Assembly: GCA_002281485.1 (NCBI GenBank)
Contig: NCGF01000009.1
Span: 1 to 64,000 of the forward strand
DNA: 64,000 nucleotides
Direction: 5' to 3'
Source: Sphingomonas sp. 28-66-16
Lineage (GTDB): Bacteria; Pseudomonadota; Alphaproteobacteria; Sphingomonadales; Sphingomonadaceae
Every line of letters starts with the position of its first letter. The first letter of the stretch is position 1. The translations under genes and the position numbers were made by a program. This document shows positions 4,037 to 9,759 of the stretch, piece after piece. The notes under the pieces are model-generated. The model ran no database searches and had not been told where the DNA came from. It was given only the letters and a program-made list of their open reading frames with translations.

Positions 4037-4204
4037 TTACGAAGCCTTCATGTTCGACGACACGTTCGAGAACGTGGTCTTGAGCTGGTTGCCCAGGCCC
4101 TGCATCGCTGCGATCGCGGCAACCGCGATCAGGGCGGCGATCAGGCCGTATTCGATGGCGGTGGCGCCCTTGCTGTTCTTGATGAACTTGCGAATGGTCT
4201 GCAT
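4037..4204 (-). CDS. flp: Flp-family type IVb pilin
   Basis: A 55-residue Flp pilin, the major subunit of tight-adherence (Tad) pili. It shows the short basic leader (MQTIRKFIKNSKG), the hallmark processing region with TAIEYGLIAAL at about residues 14-24 and a following hydrophobic helix. The prepilin peptidase would cut after the leader Gly. ATG 4204 was chosen over upstream in-frame starts because GGAG lies upstream at proper spacing. A 16-bp perfect palindrome (4241-4256) sits 37 bases upstream. No Tad assembly genes are in this window, so the secretion machinery must be encoded elsewhere. A second pilin follows at 4325-4507. Confidence 0.9.
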   Translation of the reverse strand: MQTIRKFIKNSKGATAIEYGLIAALIAVAAIAAMQGLGNQLKTTFSNVSSNMKAS

Positions 4205-4240
4205 TTTCCGGTCTCCGTTGGTTGGCTTCAGTACCCGGCT

Positions 4241-4256
4241 GACCGGCATGCCGGTC
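4241..4256. promoter_or_regulatory. 16-bp perfect palindrome upstream of flp
   Basis: Bases 4241-4256 read gaccggcatgccggtc, a perfect dyad 37 bases upstream of the flp start at 4204. It could be an operator for a dimeric regulator, or form an RNA hairpin in the leader of flp or at the 3' end of the second pilin transcript. No T-run follows on either strand, so I do not call it a terminator. Confidence 0.4.
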
Positions 4257-4324: not shown

Positions 4325-4507
4325 TCAGCCGCCGCTGCGCGCCGTTTCGATCTTCGTGTTGACGTTGCCCCACATCGACGTCGTGCTGTTGGCGACTTCG
4401 ACGAAGGCGGCCACCATCGTGATGACGACCAGCGAGATGATCAGCCCGTATTCGATCGCGGTACCGCCCTTGCGATCTGACGCGATCCTTTTCATCAGCA
4501 TCAACAT
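4325..4507 (-). CDS. Second Flp-family pilin-like protein
   Basis: A 60-residue pilin homologue: Met-rich basic leader (MLMLMKRIASDRKGG), then TAIEYGLIISLVVIT, the Flp signature with the conserved Glu after the cleavage Gly, and a hydrophobic helix. It is clearly diverged from the pilin at 4037-4204 after the helix, so it may be a minor pilin or an alternative subunit. ATG 4507 is preferred (GGAA about 7 bases upstream); TTG 4513 and internal ATGs at 4501 and 4495 are possible. Same strand as the first pilin, 120 bases upstream, so possibly co-transcribed. Confidence 0.85.
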   Translation of the reverse strand: MLMLMKRIASDRKGGTAIEYGLIISLVVITMVAAFVEVANSTTSMWGNVNTKIETARSGG

Positions 4508-4569
4508 GCGCAATTTCCGTATCGCTGCGGTTCCCTGAACTGACCTGTTAAGCTAGGGACGGTTAACGA

Positions 4570-5008: not shown

Positions 5009-5434
5009 CTACCCCGAGGCGAGGCGCGCCGCGGTCTCGCGGATCAGCGCGATCATGTTGGGGATACCCTGGGTCCGATTCGAGCTGAGCTGGTTGCCGA
5101 GATCGAACGGCGCCAGCGCGGCGGCGATGTCGCTCGCCAGAATGTCTGTCGGCGCGCTGTCCTGCACGGTCAGCAGGACGAGCGCGATGATGCCCTTGGT
5201 GATCGCGGCATTGCTGTCGGCGAGGAAATGAAGCGTCCCGTCGTCGCGACGCATCGGATAGACCCACACCGATGCCGAACATCCACGGACGAGCGTCGCA
5301 TCGGTTTTCAGCGGGTCGGGCATCGGCTCGAGCGCGCGCCCGAGATCGATCAACAGGCGGTAACGATCATCCTTGTCGAGAAAATCATACTCGTCGAAAA
5401 TCTCGGCGAGAGGGGGAGGGAGCGGGCTGGCCAT
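5009..5434 (-). CDS. sufE: Cysteine desulfuration protein SufE
   Basis: SufE accepts persulfide sulfur from the cysteine desulfurase SufS and passes it to the Fe-S scaffold. The 141-residue protein has the family's active-site loop VRGCSASVW with the sulfur-accepting C52, and the C-terminal LSSNRTQGIPNM segment. Length matches free-standing SufE. It follows the last small Psp-operon gene by 27 bases on the same strand, so it may share that transcript, though no suf genes are nearby. It converges with mutT. Confidence 0.92.
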   Translation of the reverse strand: MASPLPPPLAEIFDEYDFLDKDDRYRLLIDLGRALEPMPDPLKTDATLVRGCSASVWVYPMRRDDGTLHFLADSNAAITKGIIALVLLTVQDSAPTDILASDIAAALAPFDLGNQLSSNRTQGIPNMIALIRETAARLASG

Positions 5435-5461: not shown

Positions 5462-5698
5462 CTAAAGGTCCACCCCGGCGGCAATCGCTTCGAGCTTGCG
5501 GAGGCGTTCCTTGAGGTCGGCGATCTCGATGCGGGCGCTCGCGCTGGGCATCGTCGTCTTGGGTTCGCCCCGCACGGTGAGCTCCTGTTGCTTGAGCGCG
5601 AGCCAGCCGCGCCAGCCAGCCAGGCCTGCCATCGTCACCATGCCGAGTGCCATCAGGCCGGCCACGGCGAGGATGAGGTATAGCGACAGATCGATCAT
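5462..5698 (-). CDS. Small Psp-operon membrane protein with coiled coil, 78 aa
   Basis: Last of the five extra small genes downstream of pspC. One N-terminal membrane helix (about residues 5-28, LYLILAVAGLMALGM...), a WRGWLALKQQELTVRG juxtamembrane part, then a C-terminal helix with DLKERLRKLEAIAAG. That tail is a shortened form of the motif shared by the neighbouring genes and by PspB (consensus RLxxRIxxLERI). ATG 5698 has AAAGGA upstream; spacing to the gene before is 11 bases. Unlike its neighbours it lacks the final RDIDxLR-like end. Function unknown; location suggests a role in envelope stress sensing with PspA-C. Confidence 0.75.
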   Translation of the reverse strand: MIDLSLYLILAVAGLMALGMVTMAGLAGWRGWLALKQQELTVRGEPKTTMPSASARIEIADLKERLRKLEAIAAGVDL

Positions 5699-5709
5699 GA
5701 CAGGTCCTT

Positions 5710-5958
5710 TCAGAGCTTGTCGCGCAGCTTCTCGATCTCGCGATCGAGGCGCACGGCGTTGTTGTCGTCGGTCGCCAGCCGTTCGAGCACGGCGATCCGA
5801 TCCTTGAGCATCGCGACTTCTTCACGCAGCCGGCGCGCATCGCGGGAATCTGCGCCGTCGATCATGCCGGTGCCCTCGCGTGCCTTGAAGCGCGCCTGCA
5901 GCACCCGGCCGATCGTCACCACGATGATGATCCCGAGCACCATTTCGAATGGATTCAT
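5710..5958 (-). CDS. Small Psp-operon membrane protein with coiled coil, 82 aa
   Basis: One N-terminal membrane helix (about residues 5-20, MVLGIIIVVTIGRVL), a basic linker and a helical tail with LKDRIAVLERLATDD and a final LDREIEKLRDKL. These two blocks match PspB (RLEDRLNTIERIVS) and the PspC C terminus (DEIDSLR). The ATG at 5958 has AAGGGA about 9 bases upstream. It lies 44 bases after the preceding gene and 11 before the next, all on the minus strand. It resembles a PspB paralogue; no catalytic residues are apparent. Confidence 0.75.
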   Translation of the reverse strand: MNPFEMVLGIIIVVTIGRVLQARFKAREGTGMIDGADSRDARRLREEVAMLKDRIAVLERLATDDNNAVRLDREIEKLRDKL

Positions 5959-6002
5959 TGTCTTCGTCCCTTGAGAATATCGTTGTTCTTGTTGGTCCCG
6001 GG

Positions 6003-6269
6003 CTAGTTCAGCGAGCCGTCGCGAAGCGCCTCGATCTCGTCGGCGACATCGATGCCGCGATCGGTCACGATCCGCTCGAGCACCCGGACGCGCTCTTCGA
6101 GCCGGCCGGTATTGGCGGCATATTGGGCCGCGCGTTCAGCCACCATCTTTGCCTCGATCTCCATCTGCTTCTCGCGAAACGCCAGCCAGGGCCGGATGAT
6201 GAACACGCCGATCAAAACGACGAGCGGGATGCTGATTCCAAACAGGGGTATCAGGATGGGGCTGATCAT
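6003..6269 (-). CDS. Small Psp-operon membrane protein with coiled coil, 88 aa
   Basis: Start set at ATG 6269 (MISPILIP), preceded by GAGGATA at good spacing; longer upstream in-frame starts would overlap the previous gene. One hydrophobic segment at about residues 4-27, the sequence IRPWLAFREKQMEIEAK just inside the membrane, and a coiled-coil tail with GRLEERVRVLERIVTD and DEIEALRDGSLN. The tail is almost interchangeable with those of the genes at 6280 and 6622, showing a recent family relationship. Probable role in the Psp response by association with PspA, PspB or PspC; this is inferred from motif and operon position. Confidence 0.78.
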   Translation of the reverse strand: MISPILIPLFGISIPLVVLIGVFIIRPWLAFREKQMEIEAKMVAERAAQYAANTGRLEERVRVLERIVTDRGIDVADEIEALRDGSLN

Positions 6270-6279
6270 GGGGCTATCC

Positions 6280-6609
6280 TCAGTTGGTCCGGCCGCGGAG
6301 CAGCTCGATCTCGCGATCAAGGCTGTGCGCGCCGTCGGTGACGATCCGCTCGACATTGGCGAGCCGATCCTTGATCGAGCCCAGTTCGGCGCGGAGTTGG
6401 GCGTTCTCCTGGCTCAGCAGCTTGATCCGTTCGATCGATTCCTGATCGGTCTTGGGATAGATCGCCTGACCCCAGCTGCCATCGAGCGGATAGCCGTGGC
6501 GGATACGCATCCAGGTGGTCAGCACCCAGCCGATCATCCCGGCGACGCCGACGGCGGCAATTGCCGGACCCAGGGTCGTAAACAACGTTACTTTGTCGAC
6601 CGCGTTCAT
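6280..6609 (-). CDS. Small Psp-operon membrane protein with coiled coil, 109 aa
   Basis: Hydrophobic segment at about residues 10-33 (LGPAIAAVGVAGMIGWVLTTW), then MRIRHGYPLDG, a motif repeated as IRAKHGYPLEN in the upstream neighbour, and a coiled coil LLSQENAQLRAELGSIKDRLANVERIVTD ending in DREIELLRGRTN (described in pieces). GAGGGA lies upstream of ATG 6609. Twelve bases separate it from the preceding gene and ten from the next. The shared HGYPL motif shows that this gene and 6622-6915 arose by duplication. Unknown function; membrane-anchored coiled-coil partner for the Psp system is the best guess. Confidence 0.8.
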   Translation of the reverse strand: MNAVDKVTLFTTLGPAIAAVGVAGMIGWVLTTWMRIRHGYPLDGSWGQAIYPKTDQESIERIKLLSQENAQLRAELGSIKDRLANVERIVTDGAHSLDREIELLRGRTN

Positions 6610-6621
6610 CGTGTTTTCCCT

Positions 6622-6915
6622 CTAGCGAAGCGCGTCAATGTCGCGGGCGATGCGATCCGCGGGATCGGTGGCGATCCGTTCGAGGACCGAGATCCGCTCC
6701 TCGAGCCGACCGATCTGGCCGATCAGGCGCTGGTTTTCCGAAGACAGCAGGTTGATCGCTCGTTCGGCTTCGCGGTCGTCGGGATCGCGGCTGGCCTTGC
6801 CACCGAATTCGTTTTCCAGCGGATAGCCGTGCTTGGCGCGGATCCAGGTGGTTATCACCCACCCCGCCGTCGACATCATGATGATGAGTAGAATGAAAGA
6901 CTGACCGGAACCCAT
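6622..6915 (-). CDS. Small Psp-operon membrane protein with coiled coil, 97 aa
   Basis: First of the five extra genes after pspC. Membrane helix at about residues 6-25, the motif IRAKHGYPLEN just after it, then an acidic/basic stretch and a coiled coil with LLSSENQRLIGQIGRLEER, ISVLERIATD and the end RDIDALR. A strong AGGGAGGG ribosome binding site precedes ATG 6915. It starts 30 bases after the pspC stop. Its second half is closely similar to those of 6280, 6003 and PspB. I infer membership of a PspB-like family rather than a known enzyme family. Confidence 0.8.
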   Translation of the reverse strand: MGSGQSFILLIIMMSTAGWVITTWIRAKHGYPLENEFGGKASRDPDDREAERAINLLSSENQRLIGQIGRLEERISVLERIATDPADRIARDIDALR

Positions 6916-6945
6916 GATTTTCCCTCCCTATCCAGTCGGACCGGC

Positions 6946-7326
6946 TCAGCGCAGGCTGTCGATCTCATCGGCAAGACGCGTATTGCGGCTCGTGTACATC
7001 GTCTCGATGTCGGCGAGGCGGCGATCGATATCGCGGAACTTCGAGCGGACATCGCGCGTGGTGCGGGTCGGGTTGGAGCGCACGCCCTGCCAGAATTTGG
7101 CATCCTCGACGCTGTCATAGAGGCCGGTCGGCTTCGGGCTCGCCATCCAGGCGGTCAGCCAATAAGCCACCAGCGTCCAGGGGAACCCCCCGGCGAGCGT
7201 CAGGATCACCGCGCCGACGCGGACCCAGATGACCTCGACACCGGCATAGTCCGCGATCCCCGAGCAAACGCCCAGCCATTTGCTGTTCTGCTTGTCGAGA
7301 TAGAATTTGGTGCGGCTGGCACTCAT
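6946..7326 (-). CDS. pspC: Envelope stress response membrane protein PspC
   Basis: PspC is an inner-membrane sensor/effector that, with PspB, releases PspF from PspA under envelope stress. The 126-residue protein has the PspC domain at about residues 5-62 (KFYLDKQNSKWLGVCSGIADY, membrane segment around VGAVILTLAGGFPW) followed by a roughly 60-residue tail ending RRLADIETMY and DEIDSLR, resembling the tails of the downstream small proteins. AGGAGGA precedes ATG 7326. The gap to pspB is one base. Regulation is expected from the sigma-54 promoter at 8590-8607. Confidence 0.9.
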   Translation of the reverse strand: MSASRTKFYLDKQNSKWLGVCSGIADYAGVEVIWVRVGAVILTLAGGFPWTLVAYWLTAWMASPKPTGLYDSVEDAKFWQGVRSNPTRTTRDVRSKFRDIDRRLADIETMYTSRNTRLADEIDSLR

Positions 7327-7327
7327 C

Positions 7328-7606
7328 TCAATTCCTCCTGGTGATGTCGTAGTCGAGGGCTTCGGGGGCAGCGCTGCTGCCCAGCTTCCACTCGGGGTGA
7401 TCGGCGGAGACGATCCGTTCGATCGTGTTGAGCCGGTCTTCGAGCCGGCGGGCGGTATAGTGCAGTTCGTCGAGCAGCTTTTCGTCCTCGCCGGTCAGCG
7501 ACGCGCTCTGCTTCCACCGGGTGATGTAATGCAGGATGATCCAGGGCAGGCCGATGAAGAGGATGCCAAGGACGACCGCGACGGTGAGAAATTCTCCCAT
7601 GTCCAT
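7328..7606 (-). CDS. pspB: Envelope stress response membrane protein PspB
   Basis: A 92-residue PspB: N-terminal membrane helix (about residues 6-26, LTVAVVLGILFIGLPWIILHYI), then a cytoplasmic amphipathic part with LLDELHYTARRLEDRLNTIERIVSADHPEWK. In known systems PspB pairs with PspC to sense membrane stress. It is longer than enterobacterial PspB by a tail of about 20 residues. ATG 7606 lies one base after pspA's stop. Its RLEDRLNTIERIVS block is the template of the motif found in the five genes downstream of pspC. Confidence 0.88.
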   Translation of the reverse strand: MDMGEFLTVAVVLGILFIGLPWIILHYITRWKQSASLTGEDEKLLDELHYTARRLEDRLNTIERIVSADHPEWKLGSSAAPEALDYDITRRN

Positions 7607-7607
7607 C

Positions 7608-8276
7608 TCAGCCGGCCTTGCCGATCCGCGCCTTCAACGCGGCCAGATCGGCGTCGACCTTCTCGCTCGACCGCAGCTCGGCGATTTCTTCCTCGAGCGT
7701 CTTGGGCGGCGCGCCCAGGCTGAGCGCATCGGCGCGGCCTTCGGCGAAATCGACCCGGCGTTCCATCAGCTCGAAGCGCGAGAACGCATCCTGCACCTTG
7801 GGGCCGGCATAGGCTTCGCGCATCTTGACGCGATTATGGGCCGATTCGAGCCGCGTCGAAATCGTGTTCTGGCGGGTGCGCGCTTCGCGCAGCTTGTTCT
7901 GCAGCTTGGTGATGTCTTCCTCGGCGCTCTTGAGCGCGTCGTCGAGCACACCGATTTCGGCGGTCAGCTGATCGGCCATGTCGACTGCCTTCTGGCGTTC
8001 GACCAGCGCCGCCTTGGCGAGATCCTCGCGATCCTTCGACAGCGCCAGTTCGGCCTTCTCGGTCCAGCTGTCCTGCAGCTTCTCGAGCTTGGCGATGTGG
8101 CGCCGCATTTCCTTCTGGTCGGCGATCGTGCGCGCCGCGGAGGCGCGGACCTCGACCAGGGTCTCCTCCATTTCGAGGATGATCATGCGGATCATCTTCG
8201 CCGGGTCTTCGGCCTTGTCGAGCAAGTCGGTGACGTTGGCGGCGATGATGTCTCGGGTTCGCGAAAAAATGCCCAT
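7608..8276 (-). CDS. pspA: Phage shock protein A
   Basis: PspA (ESCRT-III/Vipp1 superfamily) binds damaged inner membrane and, unstressed, inhibits PspF. The 222-residue protein has the amphipathic N-terminal helix MGIFSRTRDIIAANVTDLLD, the EDPAKMIRMIILEMEETL block and a long coiled coil rich in Glu, Lys and Arg through residue 190. Length is typical. AAGGAG lies at ideal spacing from ATG 8276. It is the second gene of the operon, after the 51-residue ORF at 8374-8529, with a GC-rich hairpin (8324-8354) between the two. Confidence 0.97.
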   Translation of the reverse strand: MGIFSRTRDIIAANVTDLLDKAEDPAKMIRMIILEMEETLVEVRASAARTIADQKEMRRHIAKLEKLQDSWTEKAELALSKDREDLAKAALVERQKAVDMADQLTAEIGVLDDALKSAEEDITKLQNKLREARTRQNTISTRLESAHNRVKMREAYAGPKVQDAFSRFELMERRVDFAEGRADALSLGAPPKTLEEEIAELRSSEKVDADLAALKARIGKAG

Positions 8277-8373: not shown

Positions 8374-8529
8374 TCAGGCGGTTCGCACTTCGGTCGTGGC
8401 GGCACCCTGTGCTGCCTGAATATGCGCCGGGGCCACCGCGCTCAACACGAAGGTGGCGCTGCAGACCATCGCGAAGGCAATCGCGGTGAGGGTGCGGGCT
8501 GGGCTGGTCGATTGATAGCCGTTGTTCAT
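8374..8529 (-). CDS. Small first gene of the psp operon, 51 aa
   Basis: Too short for ordinary gene calling but well supported: ATG at 8529, AAAGGAA about 8 bases upstream, and TGA at 8374-8376. The peptide begins MNNGYQSTSPARTL and has a hydrophobic core (AIAFAMVCSATFVLSAVAPA) at about residues 16-36, then a short polar end. It could be a signal peptide with a tiny mature part (after APAHIQA) or a single-pass membrane protein. It is the first gene downstream of the sigma-54 promoter and upstream of pspA, so it is expected to be induced with the Psp response. No homologue is known to me. Confidence 0.65.
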   Translation of the reverse strand: MNNGYQSTSPARTLTAIAFAMVCSATFVLSAVAPAHIQAAQGAATTEVRTA

Positions 8530-8589: not shown

Positions 8590-8607
8590 TCGCAGGAAGC
8601 GTGCCAA
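8590..8607 (-). promoter_or_regulatory. Sigma-54 (-24/-12) promoter of the psp operon
   Basis: Read on the minus strand the site is TTGGCACG-cttc-CTGCGA (reverse complement of 8590-8607). It matches the sigma-54 consensus TGGCACG-N4-TTGC with the invariant GG and GC exactly 12 bases apart and only the first T of TTGC replaced. It is about 60 bases upstream of the 51-residue ORF at 8529 and in the intergenic region with divergent pspF, the expected bacterial enhancer-binding activator. PspF sites should lie further upstream, between about 8620 and 8700. Confidence 0.85.
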
Positions 8608-8706
8608 TTTTGAAAATGGCGGATTTCGGGGATTTCTGAACAAAAGCTGTCAATCTCGCCCAATTCCGACTTGCCAACGGTTGGGAATTTACGCCAAGCA
8701 TTGGGG

Positions 8707-9759
8707 ATGGAACGAACGACCCAGGTCATCGGACAGTCGGGGGTCTTTCTCGACGTGCTCGAACGGGCGAGCCGGGCGGCCGCGCTCGACCGCCCGGTGC
8801 TGGTGATCGGCGAGCGCGGCACCGGCAAGGAACTCGTTACCGAACGCCTGCACCGGCTGAGCCCACGCTGGGATCAGCCGCTGGTGATCATGAACTGCGC
8901 CGCGTTGCCCGAAACCCTGATCGAGGCCGAATTGTTCGGCCATGAGGCGGGCGCGTTCACCGGCGCGACCAAGGCGCGGGTCGGACGGTTCGAGGAAGCG
9001 CATGGCGGCACGCTGTTTCTCGACGAACTCGGGACGCTGTCGATGGGCGCGCAGGAAAGGCTGCTCCGCGCGGTCGAATATGGCGAGGTAACCCGGATCG
9101 GCTCGTCGCGGCCGATCCGGGTGGATGTCCGGATCGTCGCCGCGACCAACGAGCATCTGCCCGACAAGGTCGATCGCCATGCCTTTCGCGCCGATCTGCT
9201 CGATCGTCTGTCGTTCGAGGTCGTCACGCTGCCACCATTGCGCGCGCGGGTGGGCGACGTCATGGTGCTTGCCGAGCATTTCGGGCGCCGCATGGCCTCC
9301 GAACTGGGCTGGCAAGACTGGCCGGGCTTCAGTCCGGCGGCGGCCGATGCGCTGGTCCGGTATCGCTGGCCCGGCAATGTCCGCGAGTTGCGCAACGTGG
9401 CCGAGCGCGCGGTCTATCGCTGGGAGCGCGACGGACCGATCGACGAGATTCATTTCGATCCGTTCGAATCCCCCTATAGTCCCGCGGTCCAGCCCCGCGA
9501 GGCGCCGCCGCCGGCGGGGGCAGCGGTCGAGACGCCGGTCGCTGCCGATGCTCACCCCGATGAACCGCTGGCGGCCTGTGATCCCGACGGCCCGTCGGAC
9601 TTCAAATCCCAGGTGGCGCGGTTCGAACGCGACTTGCTCGCGCGCTCGCTGAACGAGCATCGCTTCAACCAGCGCGCCACGGCGGAAGCGCTCGGCCTGA
9701 CCTATGATCAGCTTCGCCATGCGCTGCGGCGGCACGAGCTCCTGCCCGGGGCAGGCTGA
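8707..9759 (+). CDS. pspF: Phage shock operon activator PspF (sigma-54 enhancer-binding protein)
   Basis: A 350-residue AAA+ activator with no N-terminal sensory domain, as in PspF. It shows Walker A GERGTGKE at about residues 35-42, the sigma-54-contacting GAFTGA at residues 82-87, Walker B GGTLFLDELG, the arginine-finger region FRADLLDRLSF, and a C-terminal Fis-type helix-turn-helix (RATAEALGLTYDQLRHALRR). A Pro/Ala-rich linker precedes the HTH. ATG 8707 fits the family start (MERTTQVIGQS); TTG 8671 and TTG 8701 are alternatives since GGGG abuts the ATG too closely. Divergent from the psp operon, whose sigma-54 promoter it should activate. Confidence 0.92.
   Translation: MERTTQVIGQSGVFLDVLERASRAAALDRPVLVIGERGTGKELVTERLHRLSPRWDQPLVIMNCAALPETLIEAELFGHEAGAFTGATKARVGRFEEAHGGTLFLDELGTLSMGAQERLLRAVEYGEVTRIGSSRPIRVDVRIVAATNEHLPDKVDRHAFRADLLDRLSFEVVTLPPLRARVGDVMVLAEHFGRRMASELGWQDWPGFSPAAADALVRYRWPGNVRELRNVAERAVYRWERDGPIDEIHFDPFESPYSPAVQPREAPPPAGAAVETPVAADAHPDEPLAACDPDGPSDFKSQVARFERDLLARSLNEHRFNQRATAEALGLTYDQLRHALRRHELLPGAG

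Follow-up and report, generated by a model that had tools for sequence, protein, structure and literature searches.

A row of small membrane proteins resembling PspB and the PspC tail in sphingomonad psp operons

To our knowledge, earlier work on Psp, a bacterial membrane-repair system, is almost all enterobacterial and deals with one PspB and one PspC. These two proteins are described in print as forming an inner-membrane complex. In enterobacteria, the C-terminal cytoplasmic domain of PspC binds PspA in the on state (PMC5596341), and this tail is needed for PspA binding (PMC3068692, PMC5596341). Here we describe, by computation on sequence only, the psp locus in the first 64,000 nucleotides (nt) of contig NCGF01000009.1 from Sphingomonas sp. 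28-66-16, the whole of this stretch being called the window. Directly after pspC, five small genes, named o1-o5, form what we call the array; a further kind seen in relatives is named o6. Sphingomonad psp operons usually end in such a row of three to six small membrane proteins.

Extra PspB proteins in psp operons are mentioned in PMC11237479 ('PspB duplicates', example AOL22920.1), which also suggests a fusion of PspC with a divergent PspB at the C-terminus. The mention is a single clause; array size, sphingomonad distribution, PspC-type tails, and anchor exchange are absent from the available part of that paper, and no such array appears in the available part of PMC9239133. Likewise, among the papers listed by searches of the open-licence part of PMC, none has a title or abstract that describes the size, the distribution, the PspC-type tails, or the anchor exchange. 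A preceding sequence-only reading of this DNA knew of no description of such an array. The source of AOL22920.1 we take to be a sphingomonad.

The psp locus of the window is canonical. On the minus strand lie pspA (7608-8276; TIGR02977, 278 bits, cut-off 242.95), pspB (7328-7606; PF06667, 88.7 bits, and TIGR02976, 82.2 bits, both above cut-off), and pspC (6946-7326; TIGR02978, 119.8 bits, cut-off 104), whose C-terminal tail carries the block found in the array. The divergent pspF, encoding the sigma-54 activator (8671-9759, plus strand, start codon uncertain), also exceeds its cut-off (TIGR02974, 471.7 bits against 443.55).

Membrane anchors and tails of the array proteins

The array genes o1 (6622-6915, 97 amino acids (aa)), o2 (6280-6609, 109 aa), o3 (6003-6269, 88 aa), o4 (5710-5958, 82 aa), and o5 (5462-5698, 78 aa) all lie on the minus strand. 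The start of o3 was set at the shorter open reading frame (ORF), as the longest begins at 6356 but would overlap o2. In every array protein, a single hydrophobic helix close to the N-terminus is followed by a helical tail; the five consecutive single-helix proteins of 78-109 aa noticed by the sequence-only reading are indeed present. The same reading had pointed to an HGYPL motif shared by two genes, which is found in the linkers of o1 and o2, and to matching blocks in PspB (RLEDRLNTIERIVS) and at the C-terminal end of PspC (DEIDSLR), both of which were confirmed. Its recurring block, here written R....hER/LhxTD...(E/D)IxxLR, was found in o1-o4 but does not extend to all five genes: o5 ends in IEIADLKERLRKLEAIAAGVDL, in which the ER...LE part is present and the TD and the REIxxLR end are absent. 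Among 28 aligned members of the kinds o1, o2, o3, o4, and o6, R, E, and T are invariant within the block, as are the I, L, and R of the terminal I-x-x-L-R; the D following the T is present in at least 90%.

The lysines and arginines are unevenly distributed around the membrane helix, averaging 0-1.3 by kind before the helix versus 1.9-4.8 in the 15 residues after it. Hydropathy and charge were assessed for 147 array proteins (and for 34 PspB), and 140 of the 147 carry more of these residues after the helix. By the positive-inside rule, the array proteins are therefore predicted to have an N-out/C-in single-helix anchor and a cytoplasmic coiled-coil helix, which corresponds to the PspB-type architecture of an N-terminal membrane helix followed by a cytoplasmic helix. 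The AlphaFold2 model of o2, built from 27 sequences, places helices at residues 3-38 and 54-108, separated by a loop with an HGYPL...W...YP linker (mean predicted local distance difference test score 76.5; predicted template modelling score 0.30).

Profile-profile comparison was carried out with hhalign, using 60 shuffled decoys per comparison. The family profiles of o2, o3, o4, and o6, each run against o1, scored 98.4-99.7% (0/60 decoys each). Furthermore, o1, o2, and o3 matched PspB at 61%, 83%, and 77%, and the PspC tail at 67%, 88%, and 66%, with 0/60 decoys in each comparison; PspB and the PspC tail gave no mutual match (0.5%). When the array profile was run over its own genome (limit E 10, E being the expectation value), the matches ranked o1, o2, o3, o4, the PspC tail (6946-7068, E 1.1e-4), PspB (E 0.007), and o5 (E 0.057), and the next was one unrelated place at E 0.36.

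Matches of single sequences to curated models are weak. Both o3 and o4 match PspB, through TIGR02976 (E 2.3e-4, 21.4 bits and E 3.8e-4, 20.7 bits; cut-off 51.7) and PF06667 (E 0.0017, 18.8 bits and E 0.0015, 19.0 bits; cut-off 25.6), while o1 reaches 11.9 bits with TIGR02976 (cut-off 51.7) and has no PF06667 listing. No match of o2 or o5 to PF06667 or TIGR02976 was listed; o2 matches positions 72-119 of the PspC model TIGR02978 below cut-off (E 0.0025). The PspC membrane domain, PF04024, found no match in o1-o5 at E 1. Searched against 18950 NCBIfam models at E<=0.01, the 28 array members most often matched pspC (12/28) and pspB (11/28); in Pfam, PspB was matched by 6 of the 28 and the next family, a coiled-coil one, by 3. 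Relatives from outside the family resemble the PspC tail more closely. Of seven such proteins scanned, six match PspB or PspC at E<=0.01 (the protein of locus L258 did not). A protein of another class, encoded away from psp genes (L255), aligns with TIGR02978 positions 62-121 at E 1.3e-6. At L259, from a further genome of the class, the single-helix protein next to pspABC aligns with positions 82-121 at E 1.1e-6.

Like PspB (PF06667/TIGR02976), the array proteins have an N-terminal single membrane helix, a helix with an RxxxxER motif, and a place in the psp operon. Unlike it, those of the window stay below both cut-offs, several occur beside a true pspB, and o1-o4 have the TD...(E/D)IxxLR end, whereas PspB of the same genus continues ADHPEW or ADNPDF. 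That end recalls the PspC tail (TIGR02978, about 62-121), which in the same genus reads RRLADIE..YTS....LADEIDSLR; unlike PspC, the array proteins are without the PspC membrane domain and carry the tail on a single anchor of their own. In our judgement, these profiles argue that the tails of o1-o4 are homologous both to PspB and to the PspC tail, and the array tail appears to resemble the PspC tail at least as much as PspB. We treat o1-o4 as a family of their own that resembles PspB and the PspC tail, rather than counting them as true PspB proteins. The duplication of a PspB-type protein proposed by the sequence-only reading holds to the extent that a PspB-related expansion is found in the psp operon; the tail is as close to PspC. 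Kinship with PspB beyond coiled-coil composition is indicated for o1-o3 (0/60 decoys), is less secure for o6 and weak for o4, and finds no support for o5.

The membership of o5 in the array family was tried and rejected as proven, as o5 scored 16% against o1 with 7/60 decoys as good. With a counterpart in 58 of 65 family loci, o5 is best described as a conserved neighbour whose kinship with the array is, on these profiles, unproven. In record L178 (QDFQ01000001.1), titled Arthrobacter sp. TPD3018, a gene is 60% identical to o5, as in Sphingomonas records, and the assembly therefore looks mislabelled or contaminated. Another small ORF, s40, encodes 39-43 aa with a single helix and an arginine-rich, RDRP...RRAER-like tail, and stands before o4 in 9/33 same-genus loci (e.g., L036:4433-4564); it was rejected as array kin (hhalign 0.15-0.8%), and other relatives of it were not found either.

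Distribution of the array and replacement of anchors

The gene o1 itself is present in 33 of 36 other genomes of the genus, and the remaining three (G005, G007, and G019) have array-profile matches. Thirty-three same-genus loci were cut out, and all contain 3-6 array genes after pspC (s40 not counted), mostly in the order (o6) o1 o2 o3 (s40) o4 o5. Since the kinds are recognisable across the genus and keep mostly one order, a recent local duplication is contradicted. sufE follows the array in 31 of the 33 loci; L035 ends before it, and none was found in L049. The 78 loci fetched through o5 with pspC in view also have 3-6 genes each, a count biased by this way of fetching.

The family was sampled with one genome per genus (69 genomes). 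PspB was found in 66 of them, one being the own genome, and the psp loci of the remaining 65 were extracted. In 64/65 of these family loci, pspC is followed by one or more array genes (63/65 without counting o5; L243 has none), which, with the 33/33 same-genus loci, upholds the expected co-occurrence with pspA-pspB-pspC in sphingomonads. The number of array genes per family locus has a median of 4 and a range of 0-8, with at least three in 58/65 and three to six in 53/65. sufE lies downstream on the same strand in 62/65 loci, and for 59 of the 62 the distance is no more than about 400 nt.

The order was sampled with 296 genomes, of which 269 have array-profile matches, mostly 2-8 in genomes of the family and mostly one in those of other families; G299, a family genome in this sample, has no match. 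The class sample yielded 13/289 matching genomes, four of them in the family, and in an overlapping class sample (278 genomes) PspB exceeds the cut-off in 26 genomes outside the family. The phylum sample of 299 genomes gave 27 with a match at E<=1e-4. Of these, 13 belong to the family and a further 2 to the class; the remaining 12 lie outside the class and have one or two matches each. Two loci outside the family look like smaller versions of the array theme: at L068, pspABC is joined by a second pspC and a single array gene, and at L259 by a PspC-tail protein with one helix and another PspB. A psp operon can also contain two PspC-domain genes, as at L068:3102-3787, where an array-like gene follows them, and at L258:2454-3493, where one stands between them.

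Three genera of the family lack a PspB match. In two of them (G624 and G632) no match to pspA, PspB, or the array was found. In the third, G088, pspA is present, PspB is absent, PspC comprises nothing beyond the membrane part, and pspC is immediately followed by two array genes. Among the 66 PspCs examined, 65 score at least 20 bits with the PspC tail profile, and that of G088 has no match. As a single case, G088 is what a substitution of PspB and the PspC tail by the array would look like.

The tails and the anchors differ in conservation. For o1-o4, the mean identity within the genus is 65-82% in the last 40 columns versus 38-47% in the first 30, where some noise is expected because a script chose the start codons of the relatives' genes. 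The corresponding values are 69% and 58% for o5, and 60% and 63% for PspB, whose last columns are its own variable end. We further compared sister operons, with pspA at least 92% identical (53 pairs among 101 loci; pairs share genomes), and counted an anchor as replaced when the anchor-coding stretch had at most 70% identity and the tail at least 85% in a register-proof comparison. The anchor is replaced with the tail kept in 16/287 sister comparisons, falling in about six genome clusters, and the reverse was found in 0/287. By gene, the replacements are 4/53 for pspB, 4/48 for o1, 0/34 for o2, 6/50 for o3, 2/53 for o4, and 0/49 for o5; in the control genes pspC, sufE, and pspF, either pattern was found in 0/149 comparisons. 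An initial count of 27/287 (control 2/149) was discarded as inflated by windows in different registers, and all o2 cases dropped out on rerun. In 13 of the 16 cases, one of the two anchors has a match in a more distant genome that is better by at least 15 points, which points to exchange of anchors rather than fast drift.

Operon layout and neighbouring genes

The genes from pspA to sufE are closely spaced on the minus strand, with gaps of 1 nt (pspA-pspB), 1 nt (pspB-pspC), 30 nt (pspC-o1), 12 nt (o1-o2), 10 nt (o2-o3), 44 nt (o3-o4), 11 nt (o4-o5), and 27 nt (o5-sufE); in same-genus loci, 142/156 gaps are at most 50 nt. A candidate sigma-54-type promoter site, TGGCACGCTTCCTGCG (8591-8606, minus strand), lies upstream of the operon and is the sole exact match in the window to the pattern TGGCACGNNNNYTGCR; with one mismatch allowed, 3 matches compare with 2.44 expected. 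The pattern follows the general sigma-54 consensus. A looser pattern occurs within 700 nt upstream of pspA in 75/98 psp loci, a count made with no shuffled control. Between 4900 and 8750, 0 sigma-70-like promoters were found, and the terminator-like sites (4 found, 3.1 expected) are all on the strand opposite the operon, so there is no sign of an internal break. Taken together, this layout suggests that pspA through the array may be co-transcribed from the PspF/sigma-54 promoter.

Between the sigma-54-type site and pspA lies a small hydrophobic ORF of 51 aa (8374-8529, minus strand), with no Pfam match at E 0.05. Similar small ORFs at this position are visible in the psp loci of relatives (uncounted), and in L193, L240, and L046 the place is taken by a protein of 162-172 aa that matches the TonB C-terminal domain (PF03544), in L046 slightly under the cut-off. 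Zymomonas mobilis presumably belongs to the same family by taxonomy. Its genes are numbered ZMO1061 (phage shock gene), ZMO1062 (hypothetical), ZMO1063-1065 (pspABC), and ZMO1067 (SufE), and expression of its psp genes increases with ethanol and on xylose (PMC3495753, PMC8645129, PMC7064620). ZMO1062, numbered at the place of the 51-aa ORF, rises with the psp genes (PMC8645129). By these numbers, a single gene, ZMO1066, could lie between pspC and sufE; ZMO1066 has 0 occurrences in the available text of PMC3495753 and PMC8645129, and none was seen in that of PMC7064620.

Downstream of the array, sufE (5009-5434, minus strand; PF02657, 112.8 bits) encodes an iron-sulfur sulfur acceptor and is possibly co-transcribed with psp. 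About 1 kb from the array are two Flp-type pilin ORFs on the minus strand (4037-4249 and 4325-4513; PF04964, for which the latter stays under the cut-off). Such pilins belong to Tad pili, which work with a secretin, and secretins are the classical Psp inducers.

Possible roles of the array

We tentatively favour the reading that the array proteins are accessory membrane adaptors of Psp, i.e., extra PspB/PspC-type tails, probably binding PspA or PspC, on exchangeable anchors. The suggestion of extra membrane contacts for PspA and PspC follows from the array adding such tails on separate anchors. The array genes would be made from the PspF/sigma-54 promoter together with pspABC, and their tails would pair with PspB, with PspC, and among themselves. 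The additional docking tails could then hold PspA at the inner membrane, which would raise the capacity for PspA and prolong or relocate the response, and the differing anchors would set where, or on which damaged partner, a tail is presented. Co-transcription, the pairing, the docking of PspA, and the purpose of the anchors are what we infer. A more specific form of the reading is possible but doubtful: a modular Psp system in which about 3-8 adaptors share one PspA-docking tail on cassette-like anchors, that of pspB included, and could stand in for PspB and the PspC tail, as in G088.

Several results weigh against the adaptor reading. None of the five array members of the window exceeds a curated PspB or PspC cut-off. 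With hhalign, o4 is weak against PspB (6.7%, 2/60 decoys), where its reversed profile scored higher (11%), and against the PspC tail (6.1%, 3/60); o6 reached 70% with PspB but 4/60 decoys were as high, and 94% with the PspC tail but with 1/60; o5 gave 0.4% (19/60) and 0.5% (9/60), respectively. The array profile found 7 PDB sequences at E up to 0.1, none of them a Psp protein (a designed coiled coil, reovirus sigma-1, potassium-channel chains, and prefoldin), and as unrelated helical chains reach E 0.0055, a part of any weak score is composition. The charge bias of o2 is slight (1.3 versus 1.9 lysines and arginines), making its topology the least clear, and the topology of the PspC tail in E. 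coli has itself been disputed (PMC3068692). The array is not essential to the Psp system, since 7/65 genera keep only 0-2 genes, and G088 is the lone genus with its pattern. Nor is the family tied to psp everywhere, because orphan members exist away from it (L067:3496-3768, L182:4727-5209, and L251-L257); for L251-L257, seven places in five genomes outside the class, which we suppose to be gammaproteobacterial, no psp genes were found within about 3 kb. By the look of their sequences, we take the L067 orphan to lie beside an rpoD-like gene and the L182 orphan beside dut and coaBC.

The orphans, together with the scores below curated cut-offs and the weak scores of unrelated helical chains, would suit small membrane proteins of unrelated purpose, whose likeness to PspB and PspC is coiled-coil composition and whose place in the operon is hitch-hiking. 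We consider this highly improbable in view of the genome-wide ranking, the decoy tests of o1-o3, the PspC-tail matches of relatives at about 1e-6, the family-wide linkage to psp, and the joint absence with it. The replacement of anchors with tails kept, and the Flp-type pilin ORFs about 1 kb away, could instead speak for effectors against harmful membrane proteins, with anchors that bind misplaced secretins and the like and are reshaped in an arms race against phage or the products of rivals. The PspBC complex with mislocalised secretin multimers in Yersinia (PMC5596341) is in keeping with such effectors, but neither o2 (0/34) nor o5 (0/49) shows any replacement, and we find this idea distinctly unlikely.

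Regulatory roles would draw on some of the same observations. Each array protein might be a PspB-type regulator whose anchor detects a different lesion and signals to PspC or PspA, making the array a multi-input sensor; PspB and PspC are regulators in enterobacteria (PMC5596341, PMC3068692), and the anchors differ by kind and are sometimes replaced between sisters with the tails kept. Such a sensor would have to rely on basal expression, being inside the operon that it would switch on: because the genes appear downstream of the PspF/sigma-54 promoter, most array product would be made after induction. The copy number, which varies from 0 to 8, also fits a sensor poorly, and we regard it as unlikely. 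The seemingly common promoter with pspABC and the resemblance of the tails to PspB and PspC alike would equally allow for brakes, in which the additional tails would compete with one another for binding to PspC or PspB and thereby weaken the response as feedback. Brakes leave unexplained the two array genes kept in G088, where PspB and the PspC tail are missing, and seem to us very unlikely.

With the adaptor reading thus kept as the tentative choice, the array suggests a modular extension of the bacterial membrane-repair system. It bears on the question of how PspB and PspC detect damage and transfer PspA to the membrane. Many single-helix versions of the tail with different anchors, and sister operons that differ in one anchor, make the roles of anchor and tail directly testable, and G088 provides a natural case in which pspB and the PspC tail are gone. 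The five array genes of the window match no curated family model above cut-off, yet gain a suggested role, as do several small genes in each of the genomes that carry the array in this large environmental family.

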